Part shown: piece after piece, positions 51,998-60,985 of the stretch
Layout of the letters: every line of letters begins with the position of its first letter
Numbering within the stretch: the stretch's first letter is position 1
NCBI RefSeq assembly: GCF_900638555.1
Contig: NZ_LR134525.1
Location: 1,674,001-1,738,000 of the forward strand
Reading direction: 5' to 3'
Length of the DNA stretch: 64,000 nucleotides
Source of the DNA: Neisseria meningitidis
GTDB lineage: Bacteria > Pseudomonadota > Gammaproteobacteria > Burkholderiales > Neisseriaceae
Program-made: the position numbers and the translations under genes
Notes under the pieces: generated by a model
What the model was told of the DNA's origin: nothing
The model's input: the letters and a program-made list of their open reading frames with translations, nothing else
The model's database searches: none

Positions 51998-53572
51998 ATG
52001 AAAAAATCCCTTTTCGTTCTCTTTCTGTATTCGTCCCTACTTACTGCCAGCGAAATTGCTTATCGCTTTGTATTCGGAATTGAAACCTTACCGGCTGCAA
52101 AAATGGCAGAAACGTTTGCGCTGACATTTGTGATTGCTGCGCTGTATCTGTTTGCGCGTTATAAGGCAACGCGTTTGTTGATTGCGGTGTTTTTCGCGTT
52201 CAGCATTATTGCCAACAATGTGCATTACGCGGTTTATCAAAGCTGGATAACGGGCATTAATTATTGGCTGATGCTGAAAGAGATTACCGAAGTTGGCGGC
52301 GCAGGGGCGTCGATGTTGGATAAGTTGTGGCTGCCTGCGTTGTGGGGCGTGTTGGAAGTCATGTTGTTTTGCAGCCTTGCCAAGTTCCGCCGTAAGACGC
52401 ATTTTTCTGCCGATATACTGTTTGCCTTCCTAATGCTGATGATTTTCGTGCGTTCGTTCGACACGAAACAAGAACACGGTATTTCGCCCAAACCGACATA
52501 CAGCCGCATCAAAGCCAATTATTTCAGCTTCGGTTATTTTGTCGGACGCGTGTTGCCGTATCAGTTGTTTGATTTAAGCAAGATTCCTGTGTTCAAACAG
52601 CCTGCTCCAAGCAGAATCGGGCAAGGCAGTATTCAAAATATCGTCCTGATTATGGGCGAAAGCGAAAGCGCGGCGCATTTGAAATTGTTTGGCTACGGGC
52701 GCGAAACTTCGCCGTTTTTGACCCAGCTTTCGCAAGCCGATTTTAAGCCGATTGTGAAACAAAGTTATTCCGCAGGCTTTATGACGGCAGTATCCCTGCC
52801 CAGTTTCTTTAACGTCATACCGCATGCCAACGGCTTGGAACAAATCAGCGGCGGCGATACCAATATGTTCCGCCTCGCCAAAGAGCAGGGCTATGAGACG
52901 TATTTTTACAGTGCTCAGGCTGAAAACCAAATGGCAATTTTGAACTTAATCGGTAAGAAATGGATAGACCATCTGATTCAGCCGACGCAGCTTGGCTACG
53001 GCAACGGCGACAATATGCCCGATGAGAAGCTGCTGCCGCTGTTCGACAAAATCAATTTGCAGCAGGGCAGGCATTTTATCGTGTTGCACCAACGCGGTTC
53101 GCACGCCCCATACGGCGCATTGTTGCAGCCTCAAGATAAAGTATTCGGCGAAGCCGATATTGTGGATAAGTACGACAACACCATCCACAAAACCGACCAA
53201 ATGATTCAAACCGTATTCGAGCAGCTGCAAAAGCAGCCTGACGGCAACTGGCTGTTTGCCTATACCTCCGATCATGGCCAGTATGTTCGCCAAGATATCT
53301 ACAATCAAGGCACGGTGCAGCCCGACAGCTATCTCGTGCCGCTGGTGTTGTACAGCCCGGATAAGGCCGTGCAACAGGCTGCCAACCAGGCTTTTGCGCC
53401 TTGCGAGATTGCCTTCCATCAGCAGCTTTCAACGTTCCTGATTCACACGTTGGGCTACGATATGCCGGTTTCAGGTTGTCGCGAAGGCTCGGTAACGGGC
53501 AACCTGATTACGGGTGATGCAGGCAGCTTGAACATTCGCGACGGCAAGGCGGAATATGTTTATCCGCAATGA
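51998..53572 (+). CDS. lpt3: Lpt3, lipooligosaccharide inner-core phosphoethanolamine transferase
   Basis: 524 aa. About five N-terminal membrane helices (1-165) precede a periplasmic sulfatase-fold domain with MGESESAAHLKLFGYGRETS, the nucleophile Thr region GFMTAVSLPSFFN, RGSHAPYGALL and the metal site YTSDHGQYV. Lpt3 adds phosphoethanolamine to O-3 of heptose II of meningococcal LOS; the location inside hrpA agrees with the known place of lpt3 as I recall it. Paralogues LptA (lipid A) and Lpt6 share the fold, so the substrate assignment rests on context. Confidence 0.85.
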   Translation: MKKSLFVLFLYSSLLTASEIAYRFVFGIETLPAAKMAETFALTFVIAALYLFARYKATRLLIAVFFAFSIIANNVHYAVYQSWITGINYWLMLKEITEVGGAGASMLDKLWLPALWGVLEVMLFCSLAKFRRKTHFSADILFAFLMLMIFVRSFDTKQEHGISPKPTYSRIKANYFSFGYFVGRVLPYQLFDLSKIPVFKQPAPSRIGQGSIQNIVLIMGESESAAHLKLFGYGRETSPFLTQLSQADFKPIVKQSYSAGFMTAVSLPSFFNVIPHANGLEQISGGDTNMFRLAKEQGYETYFYSAQAENQMAILNLIGKKWIDHLIQPTQLGYGNGDNMPDEKLLPLFDKINLQQGRHFIVLHQRGSHAPYGALLQPQDKVFGEADIVDKYDNTIHKTDQMIQTVFEQLQKQPDGNWLFAYTSDHGQYVRQDIYNQGTVQPDSYLVPLVLYSPDKAVQQAANQAFAPCEIAFHQQLSTFLIHTLGYDMPVSGCREGSVTGNLITGDAGSLNIRDGKAEYVYPQ

Positions 53573-53637: not shown

Positions 53638-56600
53638 ATGCAAAATATGAAAAACCAAGTACGCGGATCAGGCATGGATGCACGATCCAATCCGGCCAAT
53701 GTTTCAGACGGCCTGCAAAACAGTTCGGGTCATATCGGTACCAACACGCGTTACCGCCTGACCAAACTCGGCGAACAAATGGCGCGCCTGCCCATCGACC
53801 CGAAAATCGCGCGCATTTTGTTGGCGGCGAAGAAGCACGACTGCATGGCGGAAATATTGGTGATCGCGTCCGCGCTGTCGATTCAAGACCCGCGCGAGCG
53901 GCCGCTGGAAGCGCGCGATGCCGCCGCCAAGGCGCACGAGCGTTTTACCGACAAGCAATCTGACTTTCTTGCCTATCTGAACATTTGGGACAGCTTCCAG
54001 CGCGAGCGCGACAAGGGCTTGTCCAACAAGCAGTTGGTGCAGTGGTGCCGTCAATATTTCCTGTCGCACCTGCGGATGCGCGAGTGGCGCGAGCTGCACC
54101 ACCAGCTTGCCCAAACCGCGATTGAAATGGGTTTGACCACCAAGGAAGCGGCTTTCAGACGACTTTCCGAAATCAAGCAGCTTACGTCGTCTGAAAACCA
54201 AGGCGATCAAGACTTATCCGCCAAACGCAAACAAAAACAACTGGATAAGAAACAACACCGCGCCCAAATCCGCGCCGCCAAAGAAGCGGGCTACGAACAA
54301 ATCCACCGCGCCCTGCTCACCGGCCTTATCGCCAACGTCGGCATGAAATCGCCCGACGGCAACGACTATACCGGCGCGCGCGGCAGCCGTTTCCACCTTT
54401 TCCCCGCCTCCGCCCTGTTCAAAGCCAAACCCAAATGGGTGATGGCGGCAGAACTCGTTGAAACGACAAAACTTTATGCGCGCGACGTCGCCGTTATCCA
54501 GCCCGAATGGATTGAGCAGGAAGCCCCGCACCTCGTCCGCTACCACTATTTCGAGCCGCACTGGGAACAAAAACGCGGCGAAGTCGTCGCCAGCGAACGC
54601 GTGACGCTTTACGGCCTGACCGTATTGCCGCGCCGCCCCGTGCCTTACGGCAAAGTTGCGCCCGAAGAAGCACGTGAAATCTTTATCCGCAGCGCGTTGG
54701 TGGCGCAGGAATGCGATTTGAAAGCGGATTTTTTTGTCCACAATAAAAAGCTGATTAAAGAAATTACCGAACTCGAACACAAATCGCGCAAGCAAGACGT
54801 ATTGGTCGACGACGAAGCCCTGTTTGCGTTTTATCACGAACGGCTGCCCGATTTTTATACGGCGGATGCGGTTTCAGACGGTCTGCGTCCTGCAAATCCC
54901 CAGCAAACTGCCCCCTCCTACGCGAGGGAAGAACGGAGAGAGGGCAAAACAGTTGCCGCACAAACCAACTTCTCCGCAACCGCAGCAAACCCTCTCCCTA
55001 ACCCTCTCCCACAGGAGAGGGAGCAGAGTGCCGCAGCTTCAGCGGTTTCAAACGACCTGCATCCTGCAAATCCCCAACAAACCGCCCCCTCCCCCGTGGG
55101 GGAGGGTCGGGGAGAGGGCAAAACAGTTGCCTCTCAAACCAACTTCTCCGCAACCACAGCAAACCCTCTCCCTAACCCTCTCCCACAGGAGGGGGAACAG
55201 AGTGCCGCAGCTTCAGCGGTTTCAAACGACCCCAAACCCAAAAAGCAGCCTGCACCCCCAAAAGGCCGTCTGAAACCCCTCCCCCTCGCCGACATCCGTA
55301 CCTTCCAAGCCTGGCTCAAAACCGCCAAGCGCGACAATCCGCGCCTGCTGTTCCTCAGCCGCGACGATTTGATGCAACACGCTGCCGCGCACATTACCGA
55401 AGAGCAATTCCCCAAATTCTGGCAAACCGCAGACGGTAAGTTCAAACTTTCCTACCGCTTCGAGCCGCACCATCCGCTCGACGGTGTAACCATGACCGTG
55501 CCGCTGACCGTCCTCAACCGCCTGCACGCGCCGTCGCTCGAATGGCTGGTGCCCGGTATGTTGCGCGAAAAAATCCAGCTGCTGATTAAAGCCCTACCGA
55601 AGCAAATCCGCCGCATTTGCGTGCCCGTACCCGATTTCATCACCAAATTTCTCGAAAGCAATCCCGACCGCCAAGCGGTCATTATTCCCCAGTTGGCGCA
55701 CTTTATCGCCAAAAGCGCAGGCGATATGCGGATTTTCGAGCAAATCGACCAAGACGCATGGGCGGCGCAAGAATTGCCCGAACACTGCTATCTGAATCTG
55801 CTCATCATCGACGACGGCGGACAAGAGCTTGCCGGCGGCCGCAAACTGCACGAATTGCAACAACAGCTCGGCCAAGCCGCCGCCGTCACCTTCCGCGACA
55901 ACACCCAAGAATTCGAGCGCGACAACGTTACCACATGGGATATCGGTACCCTGCCCGAATCCATCAAATTCGCCCGCGGCAAACAACAGCTCACCGGCTA
56001 CCTCGGTCTGCAAAAAGAAAAAGACGGCCGCATCGCCCTGCGCCTGTGTGACACCACCGAAGCTGCCGAACAGGCACACCGTCAAGGCGTCATCGAATTG
56101 ATGAAGCTGCAATTAAAAGAGCAGGTAAAAGACCTGAACAAAGGCATCCAAGGCTTTACCCAAGCCGCCATGCTGCTCAAACACATCAACGCCGACACCC
56201 TGCGCGACGACCTCACCCAAGCCGTTTGTGACCGCGCCTTTATCGGCGAAGACGAGCTGCCGCGCAACGAAAAAGCCTTCAAAGAACAAATCAAACGCGC
56301 CCGCAGCCGCCTGCCCGCCGTCAAAGAAGCCCTCAGCCGCTACCTGCAGGAAACCGCCGCCGCCTACGCCGAACTGAACGGCAAACTCGGCAAACACCCA
56401 TTGACCCACCTTCTAAGACTACGCCTGCAAACCCTGCTCGCCGCCGGCTTCGCCACCCGCACCCCGTGGGCACAATGGCCGCGCCTCCCCATCTACCTCA
56501 AAGCCATGACCCTGCGCCTCGAAAAATACAGCAGCAACCCCGCCCGCGACGCAGCCCGCGAAGCCGATATACAGGAATTGGAACAAATGTGGCAGGAAAA

Positions 56601-56763
56601 AAACGACGGTTTGGTGAAACAAGGACTACCCGTTTCAGACGACCTCACCGCGTTTAAATGGATGATCGAAGAATTGAGGGTGTCGCTGTTCGCGCAGGAA
56701 TTGAAGACACCGTATCCGGTGTCGGTGAAGCGGCTGTTGAAAGAGTGGGAGGATCTTAATTAA
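53638..56763 (+). pseudogene. hrpA: HrpA DEAH-box helicase, 3' part of split gene
   Basis: An open frame of 1041 codons; hrpA similarity begins at about 53704 with DGLQNSSGHIGTNTRYRLTKLGEQMARLPIDP, the winged-helix/ratchet part that should follow GAVEAV. The OB-fold and DUF3418 C-terminal region end at KRLLKEWEDLN. The first 22 codons come from the insertion and use ATG 53638, without an obvious ribosome site. A 174-bp duplicated Pro/Gln-rich segment (54871-55218) interrupts the protein. If translated it lacks the ATPase motifs. Confidence 0.88.
54871..55218 (+). repeat. 174-bp direct tandem duplication inside hrpA
   Basis: Two 58-codon copies (54871-55044, 55045-55218), each holding PLPNPLPQEGE-type coding and a palindromic CTCTCCC...GGGAGAG segment. 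They diverge at about 15 percent of positions. The unit resembles dispersed palindromic repeats that insert in frame in many bacteria. Confidence 0.88.
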
Positions 56764-56769
56764 AGGAAG

Positions 56770-56796
56770 ATGCCGTCTAATTTTTTCAGACGGCAT
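56770..56796. terminator. Inverted DUS pair between convergent hrpA and vsr
   Basis: Left arm decayed (ATGCCGTCTAAT), right arm perfect, T-rich loop. The vsr stop codon lies in the right arm. Confidence 0.75.
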
Positions 56797-57208
56797 CTTT
56801 TATTTCCCTGACCAACCGATTTAATCGCTCCCTACAAATAGCTTTATTTTTTAATTCGCACTCCCAAACGACAATCACTTTGAAACCGATCTTTTCCAGC
56901 TCGGTTTCATTTTTAATATCACGTTCGCAATTTTTTGTGATTTTTTCCAACCAAAAATCCGTATTGCTTTTCGGGATATGTCCTTTATTACAAGAATGCC
57001 CGTACCAAAAACAGCCGTGTATAAACACGACTGTTTTATATTTCGACAAAACGATATCCGGTTTGCCTACATAGCGTTTATCGTTTTTCCGATAACGGAA
57101 ACCTTGGAAAAAAAGAAATTTCCTTACCAATACTTCCGGTTTGGTTTCTTTGCTATGGATTTTTAACATCACGAAAGAACGTTTGGATGTAGTGAAAATA
57201 TCGGTCAT
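56786..57208 (-). CDS. vsr: Vsr, very-short-patch mismatch endonuclease
   Basis: 140 aa. Nicks next to T:G mismatches left by deamination of 5-methylcytosine. The catalytic Asp51 is in GKPDIVLSKY; the zinc ligands Cys66, His71, Cys73 and Cys117 are all present (HGCFWYGHSC, VVWECELK); His64 is kept but the position of His69 of E. coli is Tyr. It starts 3 bp after the ATPase gene stop, so it is the third gene of the operon. The presence of a C5 methyltransferase upstream fits its role. The last codons and stop are DUS-derived. Confidence 0.93.
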   Translation of the reverse strand: MTDIFTTSKRSFVMLKIHSKETKPEVLVRKFLFFQGFRYRKNDKRYVGKPDIVLSKYKTVVFIHGCFWYGHSCNKGHIPKSNTDFWLEKITKNCERDIKNETELEKIGFKVIVVWECELKNKAICRERLNRLVREIKDAV

Positions 57209-57211
57209 AAA

Positions 57212-58858
57212 TTACTTGGAAGATACCACCTTCGATCGTTTTTTTGTCTGTTCCACTTTTCTTAACAAATACGAAACCAAGCTTATTAAATCCAAAGCAT
57301 CCTTATCATTAAAAATACTAGGAGATAAATTTGCTCTTAACTCATGTTGTACAGGATTTCTAAATCCAGTCCATGTTCCGCATGCAAGCTGTTCAAGACC
57401 ATCTTCTAAATTTTGTTCCGCCTTCGTTTTGTTATTCGTTAATAGAAGTATAGAATTTTTACTCCCGAAAGCTTGTTCAATCAATTCTCTTCCGTCTATG
57501 CTATGAAGACCTGTTTGCTTCTGAACCTTATCTTCGAAAACTTTAACTGCCTCGATTGCAGCACTTAAATAATCCTTCTTTTCATTGTAAAAATCATTAC
57601 AGGCAGTATGCAAATCCTGATGCAAATGCCGCCAATGATAGTAAGGATATTCTGGAATAATACTATGTAAGGCAGAGATTACTTCCGCTTGCTCTTTATT
57701 TGTAAGCTCCGAATCTTCCAAACGATTCAAAATAACTTCTACTGGTTCCCTTTCCTTTTCTGGCAATTTGTTTTTCCAATCTTCGATATCAACTCCGCTT
57801 TCGCCTTTCACTTCGTCATCTTTCTCTTTTTTTCTTCTTTTTCTCCAATCTTGCCCGATGGCTCGGACGATCTCCCCAAGGAAAACACGTAATTTTGAGG
57901 TTTTTGAATGCTTCCAGTCTAATGATGTCCTGTCGGTAGCAATTAAATCTTCATCGTCATTATCTATAAAGTCCACATTCAGCCATCCAGTCAAATATGA
58001 ATAGAAATGGCTGGATTCGCTATCAGTGAAAAACTCGGGCATATTTACCATTCTGCCGTTGGCAAACAAGGTAATACCTTTCATATTATTCTTTAAAGGT
58101 TTTTCCGTTGTAATGAACTTACCTTGTATTAATCCGCTGTATTCATACTGTTCGAATTTTGAAGATAACGATGAAATATTGGTTGCTAAATCCTGGTATT
58201 CCCATTCGAATTGTGGGGTAACAAGATCATATTTTAGATTTCCATCAATGATTTTAGGTTCAGAGCCGTTCAAGCTTACTTTGATTTTAAAATCCTGAGC
58301 CGGAAAATCAAACAAGCGGGAAAGATGCTCTACATAATTATCTAACGGATATCCTTGCTTTTTCGTCAGTTCGGTTAAAGTTATGGTTGTCCCGCTTTCG
58401 ATATTGGATTCAACAGATTCTTTTCGAAACTCCGGTTGATAAATACCCTTGCTTCTTCGAATCTCTGCATAATCCAAAGTAAAAGTAACCCTTTCGTTTC
58501 CCTGGATAGTAGAAATTTCAATTTTGTTGCCAAGCCCGAATAATGCCAATTTACCAAGGCCTTTTTTACCCGTTGGAATTCTTCCGCACGGGGAGGCTTG
58601 TTTTTCTTCCCTTCTGTTCCGACCGATTCTCAAATAAAAATCATTGATTTCATCGAAGCTCATTCCTATACCATTATCTTTAATAACGATTTTATGCTCC
58701 GGTTTATCGAATAACCTAACTTCCACTTCCGTAGCACATGCATCGTAGGCATTCGCTATCAACTCGGCAATCGCAGGAACAGTGTGCGAATACATCTTTA
58801 CACCCAAATGTTCGATTACGGTTGGCTCGAAACTCATTTTCAATTTTTCTTCAGACAT
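57212..58858 (-). CDS. GHKL ATPase (MORC/MutL-like) with C-terminal TIGR02391/HEPN-like domain
   Basis: 548 aa. The ATPase has N-box ELIANAYDA (Glu32, Asn36, Asp39), DNGIGMSF (Asp61) and the lid GKKGLGKLALFGLG (100-110), as in Hsp90/MutL/MORC proteins. The second domain (about 195-370) is of the transducer type. The last 150 residues read like TIGR02391 (Ymh) proteins, with FRNPVQHE containing an Rx4H pattern (Arg500, His505) found in HEPN ribonucleases. I chose ATG 58858 with AAGGAG 8 bp upstream; it starts 13 bp after the methyltransferase stop. MORC-like ATPases are known in restriction-modification operons. Composition is AT-rich, suggesting transfer. Confidence 0.85.
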   Translation of the reverse strand: MSEEKLKMSFEPTVIEHLGVKMYSHTVPAIAELIANAYDACATEVEVRLFDKPEHKIVIKDNGIGMSFDEINDFYLRIGRNRREEKQASPCGRIPTGKKGLGKLALFGLGNKIEISTIQGNERVTFTLDYAEIRRSKGIYQPEFRKESVESNIESGTTITLTELTKKQGYPLDNYVEHLSRLFDFPAQDFKIKVSLNGSEPKIIDGNLKYDLVTPQFEWEYQDLATNISSLSSKFEQYEYSGLIQGKFITTEKPLKNNMKGITLFANGRMVNMPEFFTDSESSHFYSYLTGWLNVDFIDNDDEDLIATDRTSLDWKHSKTSKLRVFLGEIVRAIGQDWRKRRKKEKDDEVKGESGVDIEDWKNKLPEKEREPVEVILNRLEDSELTNKEQAEVISALHSIIPEYPYYHWRHLHQDLHTACNDFYNEKKDYLSAAIEAVKVFEDKVQKQTGLHSIDGRELIEQAFGSKNSILLLTNNKTKAEQNLEDGLEQLACGTWTGFRNPVQHELRANLSPSIFNDKDALDLISLVSYLLRKVEQTKKRSKVVSSK

Positions 58859-58871
58859 GTTTTCTCCTTTT

Positions 58872-59927
58872 CTAACATTCGATATTATCAACAATTGCCC
58901 TGCCTATTTTTTCCGCATACATCGGAGGAACGGCATTACCAATCAAACGGGCTATCTTGTCCCTGCTGCCCGCTTTAAAGACATAGTTACGAGGGAACGA
59001 TTGCAATGTTGCACCTTCGCGCAGTGATAACGCCCTATCTTCTTCAGGATGGGCAAACCTCCCGTTGGAAATACTAAAGAATTTGGTCGTTATGGTAGGT
59101 GCGGGCTTATCCCACCATAGCCTACCAAACGTGTCTTTAAAACTATTGTCTTTTCCGATAAAACATTCCAGCTGTAATTCGGGAATATGCGCAAAAGCCA
59201 AACGGTTTCCTCCGTTTTTAGGTATCAAAGCCAATCGTTTCAAGTTGATATCAGATAATCCCGCACAGCTATGCATAAAATCCGTTTCGTCTTGGTGTCC
59301 TGCAATAATTTTGGGAAAGCCATTTTCCATTCCCAAAACATCGCGTACCGTAAGCCGTTTGCCCGAATACTTGACTGGTTCCAGCTTTTCTTTGGTTATT
59401 CTGTTTGCAATTAACGTAAATCTTTTACGGCTTTGGGGAATTCCGTAATCAGCCGTATTGTGAATACCGAAATGGACGGTAAATCCTTTTTCTTCCAATA
59501 ACTTTATGAAATTATCAAGCCTGCTTTCTTTCATTCTGCTCAGAATTCCCGGTACGTTCTCTACAACAACATATCCGGGATTGAAATATTCTACAAACCG
59601 CTGAAACTCCAAAAGCAAACTCTTGGATTTTTCCGATTTTCTTTTGTCTGTTTGAATAACACTCCAATATTGACAAGGACTACAACCTATAAGAATCAAA
59701 TCATCATCATTCTTTTTTAACCCGAGTTCTTTTTCCAAGGTTTCAGGCTGCAATTCAAAAACATCAGCCTGTATAAATTTGGCATTTATATTGGCTTCAT
59801 ATGTTTCTTTGCAGCTGGGTTCGTAATCTATCCCGGCTAAAACCTGAATACCGGCGGATTGCATTCCATAGCTCATTCCACCTCCGCCACAGAAAAAATC
59901 AACCGCCTTTAACTTACTGTTTTTCAT
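58872..59927 (-). CDS. C5 cytosine DNA methyltransferase
   Basis: 351 aa with all main motifs in order: I FFCGGGGMSYGM, IV GCSPCQYWSV with catalytic Cys85, VI VVENVPG (Glu123), VIII QSRKRFTLIANR, IX-X LREGATLQSFPRNYVF and LIGNAVPP. The target-recognition part lies at about 185-275; its sequence specificity cannot be read. First gene of the operon methyltransferase, ATPase, vsr; the 130-bp AT-rich region upstream (59928-60060) likely holds its promoter. No separate classical restriction nuclease gene is seen. Confidence 0.94.
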   Translation of the reverse strand: MKNSKLKAVDFFCGGGGMSYGMQSAGIQVLAGIDYEPSCKETYEANINAKFIQADVFELQPETLEKELGLKKNDDDLILIGCSPCQYWSVIQTDKRKSEKSKSLLLEFQRFVEYFNPGYVVVENVPGILSRMKESRLDNFIKLLEEKGFTVHFGIHNTADYGIPQSRKRFTLIANRITKEKLEPVKYSGKRLTVRDVLGMENGFPKIIAGHQDETDFMHSCAGLSDINLKRLALIPKNGGNRLAFAHIPELQLECFIGKDNSFKDTFGRLWWDKPAPTITTKFFSISNGRFAHPEEDRALSLREGATLQSFPRNYVFKAGSRDKIARLIGNAVPPMYAEKIGRAIVDNIEC

Positions 59928-60089
59928 TTCTATTTAAATAATTAGACTAGTGAGAACTAACTTTATATAACATATAATTTATTGCTTATCAAAAATAATT
60001 TGAGATTTTATTAAAATTCATGCATCTAAATAAGCAGAACTTAATTTCCTCCAAACGAGCGGATGTCTTCAAATGCACACTTCACAGAA

Positions 60090-60120
60090 AGGTCGTCTGA
60101 AACCCATTTTCAGACGACCT
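60090..60120. terminator. Inverted pair of AGGTCGTCTGAA (mucDUS dialect)
   Basis: Both arms are the dialect typical of N. mucosa-like commensals rather than ATGCCGTCTGAA; 7-base loop, T run after. It borders the upstream side of the methyltransferase operon. Confidence 0.85.
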
Positions 60121-60216
60121 TTTTCCACTTCCCAAAACAAGAATTCCCACCCCCTCCCCAAACGTCGCCCGAACCAGTAAACTCCCCATATTTCAACAAC
60201 TTCTTGGAAGCCAACC

Positions 60217-60429
60217 ATGCCCCGTATCCACCCTCCTCACCTGTTCCCGCCCCATATCGCCGAACGCGGCCTTTTGTATTTTCAGCAGGGCAAGGTTCGC
60301 GATGTCCGAAAAACTTCCGCCGGGCGTTATCGGGCGGAGGTATGCGGTTTGGAAAACTATTGGGTATGGCTGAAGCTGGATAGTGATTTGTATATTAAAG
60401 ACGAAAGCTGCGATTGCCCTTATGTCTAA
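60217..60429 (+). pseudogene. 5' fragment of a SWIM zinc-finger protein gene
   Basis: 70 codons from MPRIHPPHLFPPHIAERG to ESCDCPYV and a TAA. The sequence resembles the N-terminus of SWIM-domain proteins or SNF2 helicases, where CxC is followed by CxH; after the stop the same frame reads RCKHT, so the nonsense codon lies inside the finger. Nothing of the rest of such a gene follows. Confidence 0.65.
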
Positions 60430-60499
60430 AGGTGCAAACATACCTTAAATTACTATATTACATAGGCAAAATACAAGCCTATAACGAATTGGAAACAAA

Positions 60500-60529
60500 A
60501 TGCCGTCTGAAAACATCTTCAGACGGCAT
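60500..60529. terminator. Inverted DUS pair
   Basis: Perfect standard DUS arms, 6-base loop. It lies between the SWIM fragment and the decayed nucleotidase gene. Confidence 0.8.
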
Positions 60530-60625
60530 TATAAAATCTGTTCACCTTTTCAGATGAGTAATGTACACCCCTATACAATTTTTGCTACTATACCCCATAA
60601 ATCCACGGCTAAAGATATCCTTATT

Positions 60626-60985
60626 ATGTCCTATGATTTATCGAAACGACTTGTAATCGGCTTAGCATCAAGTGCCCTATTCGACTTATCCGAATCGGAT
60701 AATATATTTAGAATGGAAGGGGCAGAAACCTATAGGCAATATCAGAGAGAAAAACAAAACCATCCCCTAAAAAAGGCGTTGTCTTTCCATTTATTAAAAA
60801 ACTTCTGTCAATCAATGAAATAAACCCAAACGACCCAACGATTGGGTTTATTCTTTTATCCAGAAACAATCCAGATACAGATTACGAGTCATAACTATAG
60901 GCTTAATATTACACGATTTTCATTCCATCAAGGCGGAAAACCGCACAAATACTGAAACACTATCGATCGATTTGTAAACAAGCCT
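60626..60985 (+). pseudogene. Decayed cytosolic 5'-nucleotidase gene
   Basis: MSYDLSKRLVIGLASSALFD starts a 5'-nucleotidase-like sequence. Loss of one A in a run of six at about 60769-60774 shifts the frame; beyond it the +1 frame gives GVVFPFIKKLL and GFILLSRNNPDTDYES, then LNITRFSFHQGGKPHKY in another frame (about 60902-60950). These pieces follow the order of that family, so it is an eroded, internally deleted copy. Function is lost. Confidence 0.7.

Follow-up and report, generated by a model that had tools for sequence, protein, structure and literature searches.

The window analysed here, a stretch of 64,000 nucleotides from the Neisseria meningitidis contig NZ_LR134525.1 (positions 1,674,001 to 1,738,000; the whole genome is one contig of 2,186,098 bases), carries towards its right end an operon of three genes encoding a C5-cytosine DNA methyltransferase (MTase), an ATPase of the GHKL type and a Vsr protein. 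In this restriction-modification (R-M) cassette the customary DNA-cleaving enzyme seems to have given way to an ATP-driven sensor fused to a domain predicted to cut RNA. The genes and the two parts of the ATPase are arranged as follows.

58872..59927, minus strand: C5-cytosine DNA MTase gene, 351 amino acids (aa)
57212..58858, minus strand: GHKL-S5-HEPN ATPase gene, 548 aa from its own ATG
57824..58858, minus strand: ATPase residues 1-345, GHKL ATPase and S5-like half, presumed sensor
57248..57625, minus strand: ATPase residues 412-537, HEPN (Ymh) domain, presumed RNase effector, with the motif R500-N-P-V-Q-H505
56786..57208, minus strand: vsr gene, 423 bp, 140 aa

The gaps between the genes measure 13 bp (58859-58871, MTase/ATPase) and 3 bp (57209-57211, ATPase/Vsr), and the GC content of the operon is 0.384 compared with 0.532 in the window excluding 56700-60600; one of 122 sliding segments of operon size is equally GC-poor, and that one overlaps the operon. 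The first-pass annotation had described a tight, AT-rich group of a C5 MTase, a GHKL ATPase and Vsr with exactly these coordinates, and the three identities stand, as the proteins match PF00145, PF13589 and PF03852, respectively, all above the Pfam cut-offs. No restriction nuclease gene is present within the three-gene operon, likewise in agreement with the earlier description.

The ATPase is built of two distinct parts. First, the front part contains PF13589 (residues 27-150, E 1.5e-21, over the cut-off), and among the 60 best of 162 PDB profile matches those to HtpG, MutL and MORC3 all fall on it. The GHKL positions E32, N36, D61, G63, G65, G97 and K103 are each found in 120 of 120 aligned relatives, and an S5 fold is presumed within residues 1-345 by analogy with published proteins; a MORC-specific S5 motif, GhXhhpXXRhl, is known from the literature (PMC2292703). 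Next, the C-terminus is recognised by PF09509 (residues 410-535, 87.3 bits, cut-off 25) and TIGR02391 (residues 412-537, E 1.7e-47), so that the search with PF13589 and TIGR02391 proposed earlier yields both matches, the second being the HEPN (Ymh) domain; the PADLOC models Aga_HEPN (E 7.2e-9) and PD-Lambda-3_B (E 1.2e-15) match the same part. Finally, the R-x4-H motif is evidently conserved, with R500 present in 117 of the 120 relatives (lysine in three) and H505 in all of them, and the residues of the ATPase are kept across many phyla.

PF09509 (Ymh) was placed in the HEPN superfamily in the 2013 survey of Anantharaman et al., which also describes Ymh-HEPN domains fused to paraMORC ATPases near R-M genes and suggests that they act in the manner of PrrC and RloC (PMC3710099). 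With its ATP-binding residues intact and a C-terminal PF09509 that carries an R-x4-6-H motif, the window protein is, by its sequence features, a paraMORC-like protein and a member of the paraMORC-HEPN group. The architecture itself was therefore already described in 2013, while the earlier label of a MORC-like ATPase is better given as paraMORC-like and overlooked the HEPN half. The likely effector is the HEPN domain at the C-terminus, predicted to be an RNase, with the GHKL part as a likely sensor or switch; the proposal that the ATPase as such is the restriction effector is therefore incomplete, although the conserved MTase-ATPase pair on which it drew is confirmed below.

The family is large, with 2731 proteins at E 1e-3 or better and both domains in 116 of the 120 matches listed. 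Within the genus an ATPase match occurs in 6 of 46 genomes, at full length in two (the window's own and the gonococcal G015), and within the phylum in 21 of 398 genomes at E 1e-10, at full length in the window's own. Plasmid and phage collections hold few close relatives, namely two gonococcal records at 95% and others below 60%. PLSDB files as plasmids two gonococcal records, each some 2.17 Mb long, that are evidently chromosomes (L153 / NZ_CP119140.1).

The relationship of the sensor half to known restriction enzymes is revealed by the NCBIfam model NF050001, 'BbrUII/HgiDII family restriction enzyme', which matches the window ATPase over residues 7-392 with 222.8 bits, short of a full-length match and of the curated cut-off of 550 bits, and which in a HEPN relative from Chelonobacter covers residues 7-387 only. 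In GHKL relatives that lack HEPN (cited here by locus label) the model spans nearly the whole protein (for example 7-616 of 619 in L174, or 4-651 of 652), as it does in L194, L195, L196, L197, L096, L100 and L154, the last being a protein of phage PhiR44_1 labelled ParaMORC3; only L197 and L154 pass the cut-off, and in L005 the match is confined to residues 22-190. When the C-termini were read by eye, D...ExK words were found in L174, L194, L195, L197 and L154 and a variant in L196, none in L092, and no D...ExK-like segment in the window ATPase where the relatives have one. Instead of the PD-(D/E)XK-like nuclease expected of a BbrUII/HgiDII enzyme, the C-terminus of the window protein is PF09509. 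The Pfam nuclease matches on the relatives' C-termini are weak, the best at E 2.3e-4. A C5 MTase lies beside five of the six relatives checked (L174, L194, L195, L196 and L154, not L197). Judging from the coverage of the model and the D...ExK C-termini of the relatives, HEPN sits where a GHKL restriction enzyme would have its nuclease. In phage PhiR44_1 (L154, 4001-7049) the ParaMORC3 gene faces a Dcm gene and is located between portal and replication genes.

The HEPN half is exchanged among relatives that retain the sensor and the methylase. The N. animaloris MTase is identical to that of the window at a fraction of 0.88 over residues 1-185 and 0.93 over residues 186-285, taken as the target domain, and the sensor at 0.92 (1-195) and 0.84 (196-345), whereas the identity is 0.38 over residues 346-400 and 0.33 over HEPN. 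In N. dentiae, at a similar sensor distance, residues 421-540 retain an identity of 0.70-0.97. The same pattern was followed in a co-variation set of 65 rows, derived from 80 genome loci by leaving out ten without an adjacent MTase, three with a broken ATPase (L009, L027 and L043) and three with an MTase below 280 aa, adding the window, N. animaloris and A. pleuropneumoniae, and removing two near-identical rows. Among the 123 pairs with a sensor identity of at least 0.65, HEPN is lower by at least 0.2 in 35, and its identities form two peaks, at 0.3-0.4 and 0.6-0.8; conversely, in 10 of the 128 pairs with a HEPN identity of at least 0.6, HEPN exceeds the sensor by at least 0.12. The sensor follows the MTase with a rank correlation of 0.47 and HEPN with one of 0.27, a difference of 0.21 (bootstrap 95% interval 0.07-0.36). 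The view that only the sensor tracks the MTase is weakened by the MTase itself, which deviates in 32 of the 123 pairs.

The neighbourhoods of the relatives, surveyed at the best 80 of 153 genome loci, some of them on stretches that end early, show which partners belong to the ATPase. A C5 MTase lies within 400 bp of it in 70 of 80 loci, a pairing that exceeds chance. Vsr is found within 1.5 kb in 35 loci, anywhere in the stretch in 41 and not in the remaining 39, and the order MTase-ATPase-Vsr on one strand, as in the window, occurs in 13; Vsr thus looks like a dispensable add-on, and of the three-gene order whose conservation had been in question the MTase-ATPase pair is the conserved part. 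In ten loci no MTase adjoins the ATPase; among these, it lies one gene further off in L025 and L026 and about 4.6 kb upstream in L015; no C5 MTase was found in the stretch of L063, nor in L013, which has an HNH gene. These counts bear on the notion that the ATPase is a dedicated MutL that helps Vsr in very-short-patch repair of deaminated 5-methylcytosine. The GHKL part does resemble MutL, and the Vsr enzymes of the gonococcus bind MutL, which stimulates them (PMC6116569), but Vsr accompanies the ATPase far less regularly than the MTase does, the HEPN domain would be left unexplained, and a second PF13589 protein encoded elsewhere in the genome is presumably the normal MutL, which together make such a role highly improbable.

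A different role is suggested by four loci, L018, L021, L022 and L064, where the ATPase lies near a type II MTase and an HpaII-like or BsaWI-like nuclease. In the first three the order is MTase, nuclease, ATPase; the nuclease of L021 is HpaII (E 9.7e-110), that of L018 has a weak BsaWI match below the cut-off (E 3.9e-4) and a relative in L022, and in L064 HpaII-like and MTase-like open reading frames (ORFs) are on the opposite strand. An HpaII-like ORF is also found at the contig edge in L051. HpaII cuts CCGG and BsaWI cuts WCCGGW, and these neighbours fit the CCGG theme developed below. Such an arrangement would suit a guard or back-up toxin akin to PrrC and RloC, silenced by the MTase or a companion nuclease and fired by a phage block or by loss of the methylase, and a role of this kind has been proposed for Ymh-paraMORC proteins (PMC3710099). 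However, most loci have no recognised adjacent nuclease to guard: in the scan of 102 neighbour ORFs (25 of 104 families listed) no nuclease turns up widely as a partner, HpaII appearing twice, which also upholds the earlier statement that a classical nuclease is lacking. The guard role is thus rather unlikely, if still the most serious rival together with plain DNA restriction. The 102 ORFs were scanned out of 108 that are on the same strand, at least 150 aa long and within 1.6 kb, from 298 neighbours in total; the six dropped are L020 633-4538, L073 1001-4714, L074 7803-11009, L084 4039-4500 and two of L040, which match ORFs of L039.

The genome itself contains three other C5 MTase loci, two of which adjoin an EcoRII-type and an HNH nuclease, respectively; the first-pass annotation had named a second nuclease with this motif elsewhere in the genome as a finding that would speak against the module, and one of these two may be such an enzyme. 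At one place in the genome (L163, C1:1938500-1945000) a C5 MTase matches in two pieces.

The locus very probably corresponds to the known NmeAI/NgoAXIV system and hence is not new as a locus. The MTase matches PF00145 (E 1.9e-52) and TIGR00675 and, in the PDB, M.HaeIII (E 1.1e-25), the Vsr matches PF03852 (E 1.1e-37), TIGR00632 (139.6 bits, cut-off 97.85) and the E. coli Vsr structure 1cw0 (E 2.3e-29), and both contain the motif words of their families. In N. gonorrhoeae FA1090, ngoAXIVV is 423 bp and ngoAXIIIV 414 bp long, and both Vsr enzymes act on T:G mismatches (PMC6116569). Each of the two gonococcal genomes compared, G015 (its contig contained in the L009 record) and NZ_CP119140.1 (W01), likewise has two vsr genes: one of 423 bp in the same gene order as in the window, whose product shares 93.6% identity with the Vsr of the window, and one of 414 bp, with a product 36% identical. 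In meningococci, NmeAI is a Vsr-containing system flanked by the putative helicase gene NEIS1987, and the target of M.NmeAI is CCGG, methylation of which was detected by MspJI and not by single-molecule real-time (SMRT) sequencing (PMC7973814); CCGG methylation is reported in two further meningococcal strains (PMC4676702), and an NgoAXIV entry also gives CCGG (PMC6789123). The window operon adjoins the helicase gene hrpA, and its vsr matches V.NgoAXIV by length and by the presence of two vsr genes in the gonococcal genomes. The assignment follows from this synteny, the length and number of the vsr genes and the CCGG papers; the MTase is probably an orthologue of M.NmeAI and M.NgoAXIV, with CCGG as its target by orthology, and the Vsr a probable orthologue of V.NgoAXIV. 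The earlier view of an unusual defence candidate is partly supported, for a locus that very likely already has a name.

The gonococcal copies complicate the picture. In G015 and NZ_CP119140.1 the ATPase is in two ORFs, its frame containing two stops, the MTase is likewise interrupted and the Vsr is open. A 2026 preprint describes the ngoAXIV operon as a two-ORF R and a complete methylase, the latter a misfit with the MTase in two ORFs in both records, and reports that deletion of RM1R1 or RM2R lowers pilin variation, that growth is better without either and slower on ectopic expression of RM1R or RM2R, and that CCGG cuts are lost once RM1 (ngoAXIV) and RM2 are both deleted (PMC12871193). As the ATPase is in two pieces in both records, RM1R1 and RM1R2 may each represent one half of the GHKL-HEPN gene. 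For RM2 (NgoAXIII), the record read shows a separate HNH protein beside pheS, which may be the 'full restriction enzyme' of the preprint. These results favour ordinary restriction, in which the GHKL-HEPN protein would cut unmethylated CCGG DNA via HEPN or an unrecognised site, as does the front half, which the protein has in common with the BbrUII/HgiDII 'restriction enzyme' family. However, HEPN stands in place of the D...ExK-like segment of the relatives, the loss of cutting was seen in a double deletion (PMC12871193), RM2 has the HNH protein just mentioned in the record read, and the ATPase frame carries its two stops in both gonococcal genomes, so that this explanation appears doubtful, about as much as the guard role. 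For the latter, the joint interruption of MTase and ATPase with an open Vsr is what would be expected if loss of the methylase needs loss of the effector, but in L043 the ATPase is split and the MTase unbroken, so that the two genes need not be lost in a set order. Both gonococcal copies read are decayed, which could also point to a decayed or regulatory cassette with no defence function that is retained for methylation; the window copy, with its open genes, all motifs in place and residues kept across many phyla, makes this improbable.

The operon is situated in a variable site next to hrpA, with the following further features.

53638..56763, plus strand: hrpA flank, C-terminal part of HrpA (PDB HrpA, E 3e-160)
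56764..60087, no strand: variable cassette site, between the hrpA 3' end and a conserved block from ~60088
56767..56799, minus strand: terminator-like hairpin made of AT-DUS uptake words, which overlaps the vsr end

The hrpA 3' end is found in 44 of 46 genus genomes, and R-M or defence genes follow it in 7 of the 14 Neisseria relatives fetched: a C5 MTase with a weak restriction endonuclease match (L134), ApaLI R-M (L137), Hachiman (L138), AAA_15 with a D12 MTase (L140), GmrSD (L141), an OLD/GajA-like gene (L144) and a PD-T4-4-like gene (L146). The second flank is also present in 8 of the 14, in L142 and L143 only from ~60493-60661; the inserts of these eight have no similarity to the window insert, and among them only the L142 and L143 inserts resemble each other along their length. 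The scan comprised 20 chosen ORFs, none from L139 or L143. Since L145 has a malic enzyme at the site and the scanned ORFs of L133, L135, L136 and L142 gave no Pfam or PADLOC match, the site is a hotspot of variable cassettes across Neisseria that is rich in defence genes though not exclusively so; the AT-rich cargo of L136 and an ORF of L135 may be undescribed defence genes. In the window, hrpA appears truncated, since the alignment of ORF 53638-56763 lies in the later portion of HrpA; the preceding ORF (51998-53572) matches a phosphoethanolamine-transferase family and not the missing helicase part, and the region 54900-55500 of the hrpA ORF contains repeated stretches (NPLPNPLPQE..., GEGRGEG) resembling read-through repeat elements. 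The window holds 39 AT-DUS, 5 AG-DUS and 3 mucDUS words (DUS, DNA uptake sequence). A promoter scan gave 7 sites compared with 10.3 in shuffled sequence, and the search for phase-variation repeats gave a single weak tandem repeat of 8-9 bp, inside the ATPase gene.

Taken together, the best explanation of the operon, which we hold at a little short of even confidence, is an R-M system with an RNase output and a swapped-in HEPN effector. The MTase would mark the CCGG sites of the host, as the literature on NmeAI and NgoAXIV suggests by orthology. The GHKL-S5 half would act as an ATP-gated dimeric clamp, and the chassis common to GHKL restriction enzymes suggests that it engages unmarked DNA; closure of the clamp would join the C-terminal HEPN domains and switch on RNA cleavage, which in turn would halt translation in the infected cell. 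Vsr would stand outside the effector and mend the T:G mismatches that arise from deaminated methylated sites. What was observed directly is the gene order, the domains, the conserved motifs, the HEPN exchange, the C5 MTase pairing and the defence-rich site, whereas DNA sensing, RNase activity, the target RNA and an abortive outcome are inferred. The more specific version, a type II-like system whose restriction has moved from DNA to RNA such that unmethylated CCGG closes the GHKL clamp and fires the HEPN RNase, seems possible, with the balance leaning somewhat against it; in the same reading, GHKL-S5 would be an all-purpose chassis for reading methylation, with an interchangeable slot for DNases (as in HgiDII and Shedu-like proteins) or RNases.

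Several points weigh against the model. The coupling of sensor and MTase is only moderate (rho 0.47), the linker of residues 346-400 correlates with the MTase at 0.51, and in 32 of the 123 pairs the MTase is itself at least 0.2 below the sensor. The HEPN profile retrieves only designed proteins from the PDB, at E 0.042 or worse, counted as no match, and the assignment to HEPN comes from the Pfam, NCBIfam and PADLOC models, together with the motif and a single paper. The four loci with HpaII-like or BsaWI-like nucleases better suit an accessory role. The preprint concludes that each of the enzymes, including NgoAXIV R, cleaves DNA at CCGG (PMC12871193); apart from this claim, the literature consulted reports no demonstrated activity of this protein, and the titles and abstract openings listed from open-licence papers name no GHKL-HEPN protein that was experimentally tested.

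If the model is true, a named R-M locus of human-associated Neisseria restricts without cutting DNA, a widespread family uses an epigenetic mark of self to control an RNase, and the GHKL module senses the absence of methylation and can be combined with effectors that are DNases or RNases. It would likewise offer a domain reading for the NgoAXIV restriction gene, treated as a CCGG DNA cutter in the 2026 preprint (PMC12871193).

The proposed system shares features with several known ones. From NmeAI/NgoAXIV, a Vsr-containing CCGG system by a helicase gene with the same gonococcal gene order, the window operon differs in that all its three genes are open, whereas the gonococcal MTase and ATPase are interrupted in two records. 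The BbrUII/HgiDII enzymes have the same GHKL-S5 front half and C5 MTase partner, but the relatives read carry a D...ExK-like C-terminus where the window protein has HEPN. VcSduA, a GHKL-Shedu (paraMORC3) protein, also combines a GHKL ATPase with a nuclease and is experimentally phage-defensive, the defence being abolished by mutation of either the glutamate of its ATPase or the lysine of its nuclease (PMC12137116); its nuclease, in contrast, is of the PD-(D/E)XK type, none of which was found in the window protein. PrrC is reportedly partnered with a type I R-M system. The PrrC and RloC anticodon nucleases are similar as RNases linked to R-M, an analogy drawn in the 2013 survey (PMC3710099), though they use a Rad50-like ABC ATPase instead of GHKL. 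The closest likeness is to the paraMORC-Ymh HEPN fusions, of which the window protein, with the same architecture and R-M neighbourhood, is a member; in the survey their function is deduced from genomic context (PMC3710099), and the exchange of HEPN relative to sensor and methylase is added here.

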